Origin: Crocinitomicaceae bacterium
GTDB lineage: Bacteria > Bacteroidota > Bacteroidia > Flavobacteriales_D > Crocinitomicaceae
DNA length: 62,291 bases
Assembly: GCA_022447665.1 (NCBI GenBank)
Contig: JAKVAQ010000030.1
Coordinates: 1-62,291, forward strand
Reading direction: 5' to 3'
The notes under the pieces: model-generated
Told to the model about the DNA's origin: nothing
The model's input: the letters and a program-made list of their open reading frames with translations, nothing else
Databases searched by the model: none
In this document: piece by piece, positions 35,591-37,513 of the stretch
How the letters are laid out: the number at the start of each line of letters is the position of its first letter
Position numbering within the stretch: position 1 is the first letter of the stretch
Program-made: the position numbers and the translations under genes

Positions 35591-36505
35591 ATGATCGCAA
35601 TTCCAGACCCTTGTAATGAGGATTTCTCAAAAATGAATAAAACTGAAAGGGGTGCTTTCTGCAGTAAATGTAGCACTGACACCTTTGATTTCAGAAAACT
35701 CAGCAACCCGGAAATTTTAAGGCTTATAGCTAAGAACAAAGGCGAAAAAATGTGTGGTCAATTCACTAGTCGGCAACTCTATGAATTAAACTTAGGTTTT
35801 GAAGAATGGAGAAAGCAGACTCCACGTACCTTTCGTAGCAAATTTATTTTCGCTGTTTTAATTGGGTTTGGTTTGACCTTATTTAGTTGCACGCAAGAAC
35901 GAGATTTAGTTGAACAAGAATTAAGTGCAATTGAAGAAATTGTAGAAGTAATTCCTAAAATCAATTATATCAACCAAGAAACTAGTGTATCGGAACTGGA
36001 TCTTACCAATTATGTTGACTCTATGCATTTACCCCCGATTCCAGAATTTGAAGTTAATGGTGGTTTAGAATTATATGAATTAGGGGGTGATATGATCATT
36101 GAAGAGGTTTATGAGCACCCTAGGGATTGGGTTACTGGAGGTATTCCTGCTATTTCTCATGAATTTATTGAATACGCAGAGATAATAACGGTTGAAATGA
36201 AAGATACCATTGAAGAAACGATTCTGCCAGAACCTATTCAAGCAATAGAGTTTACGAGCAAAGTATATCCGAATCCTTCTAAAGGACTATCAACGCTTGA
36301 AATTGAGATTAAAGAGGCTGATGAATTTCAAATAGATATCTACAATGCAAACGGCTCGTTTGTACAAAACATCTATTCTGGAGAGTTGAACGAAGGAAGA
36401 CAACGATTTGAAATCGACTTGAGTTATGCTAATTCTGGCATGTATTTGGTTCGTCTTAGTTCAAGCTCCCAAAGCGAGACGTTGAAACTTCAGCGTGTGA
36501 ACTAA
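35591..36505 (+). CDS. four-Cys domain protein with internal signal and T9SS tail, paralogue 1
   Basis: 304 residues. An N-terminal domain without signal peptide has C8, C24, C27 and C55 (C-x15-C-x2-C-x27-C; GAFCSKCSTD), the look of a zinc- or disulfide-stabilised domain. Then an Arg/Lys-flanked hydrophobic segment (84-100) ending FSC, which resembles a lipobox. A long acidic region follows, and the last 80 residues form a T9SS type A sorting domain (KVYPNPSKGLSTL, ending ETLKLQRVN). The order, Cys domain before the export signal, is odd for secreted cargo. The next gene is a clear paralogue. Function unknown. Confidence 0.7.
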   Translation: MIAIPDPCNEDFSKMNKTERGAFCSKCSTDTFDFRKLSNPEILRLIAKNKGEKMCGQFTSRQLYELNLGFEEWRKQTPRTFRSKFIFAVLIGFGLTLFSCTQERDLVEQELSAIEEIVEVIPKINYINQETSVSELDLTNYVDSMHLPPIPEFEVNGGLELYELGGDMIIEEVYEHPRDWVTGGIPAISHEFIEYAEIITVEMKDTIEETILPEPIQAIEFTSKVYPNPSKGLSTLEIEIKEADEFQIDIYNANGSFVQNIYSGELNEGRQRFEIDLSYANSGMYLVRLSSSSQSETLKLQRVN

Positions 36506-36509
36506 AAAT

Positions 36510-36534
36510 GAACCTTTCAAAATTAAGGTTGTAC
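36510..36534 (+). promoter_or_regulatory. two-box promoter-like element, copy 2
   Basis: GAACCTTT (36510-36517) and GTTGTAC (36528-36534), again with 13 bases between GAACC and GTTGTAC and 19 bases before the ATG at 36554. The intervening bases differ from copy 1, so only the two boxes are conserved. Confidence 0.55.
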
Positions 36535-36553
36535 AGAAACAAAAAACAAAGCT

Positions 36554-37513
36554 ATGCATACTGTTAAGATTCCTGAGCCATGCCATGAAAATTGGAACGA
36601 GATGACACCAACCCAAAAAGGAGCATTTTGCCAAAAATGCGCTATTGATGTCGTTGATTTCAGTAAAATGTCCAACGAAGAAGTGAAGAGAACGCTCTCA
36701 GAAAAGAAAGGACAGCATTTGTGCGGAAGATTCGAGAATGATCAACTAAATGATTATAACGCAGAACAACGCTGGATGAAAAACGGCTCATGGAAAGTGT
36801 ATTTAAGCAAATTTGTAGCTGCTCTAGTGTTAGGTTTTGGTATGTCACTATTCAATGGTTTAAATGCTCAAGAACATGAAAACTATAAATACAGAACATT
36901 AGGCATGGTGGTTCATATTGAAGAACCTGTTGAAGAAGATTCAATTTTTGTGGAGGACATTAAGATTGTAGAAGACAGCATATACGAAAAAGTTTGTGAA
37001 AAAGACGAAGAGTTAATTCATAAAAAGGGTAAAGTAAAAGTCGTAGAAGCTGAGCCAGAGGAAGAAATTCATACCAAGGGTGAAATATTAATTGTTGACA
37101 CGAGCGCCGTAGAGGAAATAGAAGAGCCAGTAGAACTTGAAAAACCTACTGAAATAATTGCTCCACGATATAGGATTGGTGATAGAGCAAATACTACGAA
37201 AAAGCCAATGAAAACTGTGAAGTTGGAAATGAATCCAACACCAATATCCAATGCTCAGTATACATCTACAATATTTCCTAACCCAACCAGCAACTCATCT
37301 GAATTAGTTGTTAGTACTGATATTAATCAAAATTTTGATATAGTTTTATTCGGATCAAATGGACAAATCATTTCTGAAATCTTCTCAGGAGAAATTTTAG
37401 CCGGTGAACAACGTTTCACAATCGACTTAAATACCTTTGCTACAGGAATTTACTTTGTGCAGCTAGTGTCTGCGAAAGGCTCAGAAATCATAAAGATTCA
37501 AAAAGTGGATTAG
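36554..37513 (+). CDS. four-Cys domain protein with internal signal and T9SS tail, paralogue 2
   Basis: 319 residues. The N-terminal domain has C10, C26, C29 and C57, the same C-x15-C-x2-C-x27-C spacing as paralogue 1, with IPEPCHENWNEM, GAFCQKC and VDFSKMSNEEVKRTL. The hydrophobic segment (86-100, SKFVAALVLGFGMSLF) ends NGLNA-Q, a good signal peptidase I site. A Glu/Lys-rich region and a type A sorting domain (TIFPNPTSNSSEL, ending EIIKIQKVD) complete it. I recall this Cys domain in other Flavobacteriia proteins without assigned function. Confidence 0.7.
   Translation: MHTVKIPEPCHENWNEMTPTQKGAFCQKCAIDVVDFSKMSNEEVKRTLSEKKGQHLCGRFENDQLNDYNAEQRWMKNGSWKVYLSKFVAALVLGFGMSLFNGLNAQEHENYKYRTLGMVVHIEEPVEEDSIFVEDIKIVEDSIYEKVCEKDEELIHKKGKVKVVEAEPEEEIHTKGEILIVDTSAVEEIEEPVELEKPTEIIAPRYRIGDRANTTKKPMKTVKLEMNPTPISNAQYTSTIFPNPTSNSSELVVSTDINQNFDIVLFGSNGQIISEIFSGEILAGEQRFTIDLNTFATGIYFVQLVSAKGSEIIKIQKVD

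Follow-up and report, generated by a model that had tools for sequence, protein, structure and literature searches.

Signal peptides are usually seen as short N-terminal tags. The nearest precedent for a larger element in front of such a tag would seem to be the extended signal peptide region (ESPR) of type 5 secretion, a conserved N-terminal extension of about 25 residues that precedes a canonical cleavable signal and is proposed to slow export and to retain the passenger for a time at the inner membrane (PMC8151025); long autotransporter signals have also been described (PMC2805444). In contig JAKVAQ010000030.1 of a Crocinitomicaceae bacterium (Bacteroidota; assembly GCA_022447665.1), of which positions 1 to 62,291 were analysed (the window), two adjacent genes, here called P1 and P2, encode proteins in which a domain with four cysteines stands ahead of an internal signal-like segment, followed by an acidic spacer and a C-terminal type A sorting domain of the type 9 secretion system (T9SS). 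Like the ESPR, the N-terminal part is a conserved extension before a signal of canonical type, but it comprises about 80 residues, is predicted to be folded, contains four conserved cysteines and is found, in the family described below, before ends resembling signal peptidase I as well as signal peptidase II sites and before T9SS, CarboxypepD_reg and TonB_C passengers. The ESPR profile PF13018 gave no row up to E 1 with P1 or P2 and is absent from the 25 of 38 families that were examined for 110 family members. P1 and P2 resemble T9SS type A cargo (PF18962/TIGR04183) in their C-terminal sorting domain, by sequence and by predicted fold, and P2 does so also in a signal ending in A-Q as in ordinary cargo of the same genome; they differ from it in that the signal is internal, behind the four-cysteine domain.

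Both open reading frames (ORFs) are present where an earlier note, made by a model from the letters of the window, had placed them, and its description of their sequences holds. The cysteines follow the pattern C-x15-C-x2-C-x27-C in both proteins (additional ones are Cys100 in P1, at the end of the hydrophobic segment, and Cys148 in P2), the two are paralogues (29% over 320 columns, nearly the entire length), and a Sec signal at the N-terminus is absent from both, the signal-like segment beginning at about residue 85. The hydrophobic segments (approximately residues 84–100 in P1 and 87–103 in P2) are each preceded by a basic stretch, TFRSK in P1 and VYLSK in P2, and end with LFSC and NGLNA-Q, respectively, and both C-termini score above the curated thresholds of Pfam and NCBIfam for a sorting domain of type A. 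An AlphaFold2 model of P2, computed with an alignment of 109 rows, contains a folded N-terminal domain with a predicted local distance difference test score (pLDDT) of 84–94 in the first seven ten-residue blocks, a helix at residues 80–102, an acidic spacer of low confidence and a beta-sandwich tail with a pLDDT of about 97. The predicted tail matches solved C-terminal domains (CTDs) of T9SS cargo, namely mirolase (Z 10.9), PorU (Z 10.6), NucA (Z 10.3) and also PorZ, as well as many other beta-sandwich chains, some of which rank higher, up to Z 11.2.

Is this layout peculiar to one pair of genes? A chance or one-off arrangement was rejected, since the layout recurs in 139 analysed proteins and in a second sample. 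Of the loci behind the 139 proteins, P1 and P2 included, one scan contributed its 79 best and another its top 30, and a further stretch of the own genome (L005) was added; 148 domain hits became 142 without identical or contained copies and 139 after removal of two incomplete proteins and one without the cysteine pattern. This sample is biased towards the window's kind, the scan patterns having contained Cys1 or Cys2 and a loose cysteine pattern having been required, and the alignment, the passenger Pfam scan and the library scans took 109 or 110 of its members. An ATG lies 3–11 residues before the domain profile in 146 of the 148 hits and at the profile start in two. The spacing is narrow: the hydrophobic peak follows the fourth cysteine by 20–39 residues in 137/139 proteins and by 29 or 30 in 68, although a number of peaks are weak, down to 0.95 in L101 among the 137. 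The two exceptions are L099 (5760), a copy truncated to 80 residues next to a complete one, and L104, in which the script placed the peak wrongly. In the second sample, 46 hand-picked loci comprising 40 lower-ranked hits of the class and 6 from outside it, the four cysteines and the internal segment are kept in 44 of 45 readable proteins; one locus is cut by a contig end (L229), L213 lacks the fourth cysteine and the segment, the end of the segment is doubtful in L230, and L204 duplicates a protein already present in the first set. Conserved cysteine spacing together with an internal signal in many genomes, which the earlier note had named as support for its reading, was therefore found, and the loss of cysteines that it had named as a refutation was not: in the 109 of the 139 proteins aligned over their full length the four cysteines are the only invariant columns, in rows preselected by the loose cysteine pattern that 1 of 142 failed. 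At the fourth cysteine, some members of L038, L039 and L043 have PC-x-RI rather than CG.

The family is widespread. At E 1e-3 the N-domain matches 126 of 395 sampled genomes of the class and, in a sample of the phylum, 54 of 395, of which five lie beyond the class; scanning GTDB species genomes returned at least 546 relatives, and the 79 loci kept from it are all from Bacteroidota by title. Three plasmid records match at E 1e-3, Bacteroidota by name, whereas phage records gave no match and none of seven pattern matches in viral contigs was confirmed. In the own genome the P2 N-domain finds four places and the profile adds a fifth (L184, contig C3), where two divergent members stand in tandem, with C-x11/12-C-x2-C, an internal segment and an end in NAQ or FAQ; one copy contains a masked letter, and the L184 member that was scanned has a CarboxypepD_reg-like passenger. 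As this fifth locus carries two copies, the genome holds at least six members.

Do the internal segments end like cleavable signals? Among the 139 family members 72 ends are lipobox-like, 46 read A/G/S-Q, 11 AxA and 10 fit none of these, and the 109 ordinary N-terminal signals from the same loci distribute similarly (32, 52, 13 and 12), unlike 97 internal N-in helices (3, 6, 34 and 54). Lipobox-like or A/G/S-Q ends thus occur in 84/109 ordinary signals versus 9/97 helices, and the family differs from the helices with a Fisher p of about 2e-33. A small residue followed by cysteine is clearly enriched at the end of the segment. The 45 ends of the second sample comprise 21 A/G/S-Q, 16 lipobox-like and 8 AxA. 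Since most signal peptidase I substrates of Bacteroidetes expose a glutamine that becomes pyroglutamate (PMC5837995), the share of A/G/S-Q among the non-lipobox ends of the family (46/67) is telling, and P2 fits this Q-rule with a small residue and a glutamine directly after the hydrophobic core (LNA-Q).

What follows the signal varies. By BLAST the N-modules (domain plus signal) match each other in 99.6% of pairs among the 139 proteins, the passengers in 14.5% (137 proteins), and the passengers fall into 24 single-linkage groups, one with 93 members; of the 3763 pairs with a domain identity of 50% or more, 3762 have domains that resemble each other more closely than their passengers do. Homologues fused to other C-terminal domains, which the earlier note had proposed to look for, do exist: the commonest Pfam domains among the 109 passengers given belong to exported kinds, with CarbopepD_reg_2 in 45, Por_Secre_tail in 39 and TonB_C in 8, and local profiles find a T9SS tail in 56 and a CarboxypepD domain in 45 of the 139, none of the latter 45 with a lipobox-like end. 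The link to T9SS drawn by the earlier note stands for P1 and P2, but across the family the layout is not tied to this system. Passengers of the same kind also occur next to family members behind plain signals. P3, the gene before P1, has a tail 40% like that of P1 over 102 amino acids, and one TonB_C gene of Aureibacter, itself with an ordinary signal, adjoins two that have the N-module and whose segments end in EAQ; because of such pairs the N-module looks like a separable export module.

On which side of the membrane would the four-cysteine domain reside? The mean net charge is +2.3 before the segment and -0.65 after it, being higher before than after in 122/139 proteins, a bias that fits an N-in/C-out orientation. 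Moreover, a plasmid of Calothrix brevissima encodes a stand-alone relative of 107 residues (L233, 2447–2770; 45.1 bits, reversed sequences at most 0.7) that has no hydrophobic segment by eye and a further C-terminal cysteine; a domain working in the cytosol fits this soluble relative. A second relative from outside the class, L230, scores 54.7 bits (reversed sequences again at most 0.7). Similar proteins with a CVRFYRR-DGT motif presumably exist in other phyla, which we take as an unconfirmed lead only. Charge bias, passenger kinds and the soluble relative thus speak for the cytosolic side that the earlier note had assigned to the domain, so that its interpretation is partly supported; it had seen something real that generalises.

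The domain itself founds a family that is uncatalogued in Pfam and NCBIfam, neither of which holds a model for it (P1 and P2 scanned, and sets of 16 or 110 members). Weak rows for Maf, HMG box, the FmdE treble clef and DUF1289 were taken as chance; those for DUF1289 concern 2/110 members with a best E of 0.044, and no profile comparison with DUF1289 was made. Weak zinc-finger rows appear in a few of the 110 members. In a sequence search of the PDB with the domain, phmmer returned a single row (E 0.2), and the rows found by profile, mostly HMG boxes, had E 0.03 or higher. With the predicted domain alone the best Foldseek E was 3.5 and none of 55 chains reached Z 2 with VIA, which does not establish a new fold. 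A literature search restricted to open-licence PMC papers found no description of the domain or the layout, which does not prove their absence from the literature. The conservation of the four cysteines and the weak zinc-finger rows hint indirectly that the domain may bind zinc or another metal.

How might a family work in which computation finds conserved cysteines, narrow spacing, signal-like ends and export-type passengers? We consider it probable, though by no means assured, that a cytosolic, presumably metal-binding domain is attached to a cleavable Sec signal, that it remains in place while the passenger is exported, and that it perhaps paces or gates this export. The four-cysteine domain of about 70 residues would fold on the cytosolic side, probably with its four cysteines holding a single zinc or other metal, and the hydrophobic segment would enter the translocon N-in/C-out. 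Behind the segment the chain would be cut by signal peptidase I in P2 (LNA-Q) or, less surely, by signal peptidase II in P1 (LFS-C); the acidic, T9SS-tagged remainder would proceed to the surface, and the N-module of about 100 residues would stay at the inner membrane. There it could be imagined to pace or gate translocation, as is proposed for the ESPR, and the four cysteines could make such pacing metal- or redox-dependent; both suggestions are speculative.

Several observations weigh against this proposal, above all for proteins of the P1 type. The classical lipobox consensus is [LVI]-[ASTVI]-[GAS]-C (PMC8151025), and only 6 of the 72 lipobox-like ends conform to it, the scoring rule having been wider, as compared with 14 of 29 listed words of the N-terminal control signals. 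LFSC of P1 misses it with Phe at -2 and meets the wide form only; this word alone makes up 45 of the 72, and is found in 2 of 32 ordinary lipobox-like N-terminal signals. In addition, a later A/G/S-Q is present in 13 of the 72, rendering the class partly ambiguous. Because of this ambiguity and of the width of the rule, signal peptidase I is a surer assignment than signal peptidase II. Comparison supports cleavage and topology more firmly for the A-Q class represented by P2 than for the LFSC class of P1. The counts of ends are moreover not independent, since the 139 rows are related; in a quick domain tree about ten changes between the two end types suffice, and the two independent pairs on well-supported branches are too few for a test. 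Finally, among the 56 members with a T9SS tail a lipobox-like end is found in 36, one of them P1, which sets these apart from ordinary T9SS cargo of the own genome: among 29 readable signals (from 40 loci hand-picked out of 150, the remainder of the 40 lacking a start or a clear segment) 23 end in A/G/S-Q, one is lipobox-like (and also reads AYAQ), one has AxA and four have none. This genome of 4.06 Mb has a large set of such cargo, with 150 Por_Secre_tail matches at E 1e-3 when 150 of 193 candidates were scored.

T9SS-tailed members with LFSC may be either lipidated T9SS cargo, or cut by signal peptidase I, or uncut, or may carry one tag that is not used. The consensus of lipoprotein export signals is acidic, and among lipobox-like members the T9SS-tailed ones have on average 2.0 acidic residues at +2 to +6, the untailed ones 0.75 (36 each, p 0.00025). 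It could be imagined that an acidic lipoprotein export signal directs P1-like members, once lipidated, to the surface, the T9SS tail being a relic or a dual tag, and surface lipoproteins with an N-terminal export signal are a precedent within Bacteroidota (PMC11885536). This possibility deserves attention but remains the less credible one, as the profile match of the P1 tail gives no sign of decay, Cys100 is followed only by TQERD, and LFSC is no classical lipobox. We put less trust still in the idea that the segment is not cut at all and that the proteins are type II membrane proteins with a signal anchor, a cytosolic four-cysteine sensor and a periplasmic rest, acting in the manner of TonB or of a sensor. 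Their predicted topology would be identical, TonB_C passengers occur in 8/109, two relatives bear the name energy transducer TonB in a RefSeq record, and ends of the P1 type mostly miss the classical lipobox. Yet the ends of the segments are like those of cleavable signals and unlike those of internal helices, the T9SS tails in 56/139 imply release from the inner membrane, P1 and P2 lack TonB_C, and in Aureibacter the TonB_C pair ends in EAQ beside a neighbour with TonB_C behind an ordinary signal peptide.

Zinc anti-sigma factors have a small cytosolic cysteine domain, one membrane helix and an extracytoplasmic part, a layout that the family would share. By analogy, the N-module left behind could itself be the active product, a tethered domain that reports export to the cytosol like such a factor or like a signal in regulated proteolysis. 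That the domain is better conserved than the passenger in nearly all pairs, as if it were the selected part, and exists also as a soluble protein would agree with this. We regard it as improbable all the same, since no constant partner gene was seen among the best 25 of 85 downstream and the best 25 of 74 upstream families, sigma-70 region 2 being found upstream in 3/72 loci and no sigma factor among the four window neighbours scanned; the cysteine spacing differs from the zinc anti-sigma motif, and the signal-like ends and T9SS tails are further differences. Could the four-cysteine part, finally, be an artefact of the start codon, the real proteins beginning later with an ordinary signal peptide and the part upstream not being translated with them? 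In P2 a short ordinary signal peptide starting at Met75, just ahead of the segment, could be imagined; a Met lies at most 14 residues before the segment in 28/139 proteins and some ATG, GTG or TTG in 59/139. A later start, named by the earlier note as a refutation if it were the general rule, is not what the family displays: 80/139 have no such codon before the segment, P1 has no Met between residues 54 and 145, the domain is in frame and conserved across lineages, and in three of four annotated Aureibacter relatives the coding sequence (CDS) starts at the domain. We therefore give this explanation very little credence. The fourth Aureibacter relative, on a plasmid (L186, 3822–4439), speaks for it in being annotated as beginning inside the four-cysteine domain, although an in-frame upstream ATG would include the whole domain.

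The features of the locus are listed in the table. P3, directly upstream of P1, is a small protein with a CRRNCGCSGC motif; as it lacks the N-module, it offers a natural comparison. Window neighbours by Pfam are GCV_T (glycine cleavage T protein), Ribul_P_3_epim (ribulose-phosphate 3-epimerase), P3, Polysacc_synt_2 and 4HBT_2 (thioesterase), and a scan for promoters and terminators remained close to chance level. Around the family loci no partner gene is widely common among the best 25 of 85 downstream and the best 25 of 74 upstream families examined, synteny being lineage-specific only: 1-deoxyxylulose-5-phosphate synthase is found downstream in 8/75 loci, Polysacc_synt_2, as in the window, in 7/75, and a cytidine-deaminase-like gene upstream in 8/72. 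Elsewhere in the own genome contig C15 (L002, L003, L005) carries two more members without T9SS tails, of 154 and 178 amino acids, and the end of the ORF before each reads like that of a large protein which we take to be T9SS type B (gliding C-terminus). Four to six family members are arrayed in a single locus in L043, L039, L082 and L096.

Table. Positions of P1, P2, their predicted parts and P3 in the window.
Feature	Position	Strand	Description	Basis
P1, 304 aa	35591..36505	+	four-Cys domain, internal signal with lipobox-like LFSC, acidic spacer, T9SS type A tail	ORF, Pfam, NCBIfam
P1 four-Cys N-domain	35591..35806	+	residues 1-72, Cys 8/24/27/55	family alignment
P1 internal hydrophobic segment	35840..35890	+	ends in LFSC; Cys100 codon 35888-35890	
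P1 T9SS type A sorting domain	36263..36502	+	residues 225-304	Pfam PF18962 E=2.5e-13, TIGR04183 E=9.7e-12
P2, 319 aa	36554..37513	+	four-Cys domain, internal signal ending NGLNA-Q, acidic spacer, T9SS type A tail	ORF, Pfam, NCBIfam, AlphaFold2
P2 four-Cys N-domain	36554..36775	+	residues 1-74, Cys 10/26/29/57	family alignment, AlphaFold2
P2 internal hydrophobic segment	36812..36868	+	up to predicted signal peptidase I site; Gln106 codon 36869-36871	Q-rule (PMC5837995)
P2 T9SS type A sorting domain	37271..37510	+	residues 240-319	Pfam, NCBIfam; fold match to solved CTDs
P3, 230 aa	34850..35542	+	T9SS tail related to that of P1; ordinary N-terminal signal peptide ending FSQ; without N-module	

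In about one third of the sampled genomes of the class a whole conserved domain thus precedes the signal tag. Since signal predictors inspect the region near the N-terminus, such cargo may be missed or called membrane protein. The most far-reaching form of the proposal would be a new class of bacterial signal sequence, in which a folded four-cysteine metal domain makes the export of many unrelated passengers metal- or redox-dependent and persists tethered to the membrane, soluble relatives existing elsewhere and the domain having been recruited as an export module in Bacteroidota; this we consider rather doubtful at present. The lipobox-like end ahead of a T9SS tail raises the question of how the two routes to the surface meet. 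Should the domain gate export according to metal or redox state, surface proteins of Bacteroidota would have a control point in the cytosol.

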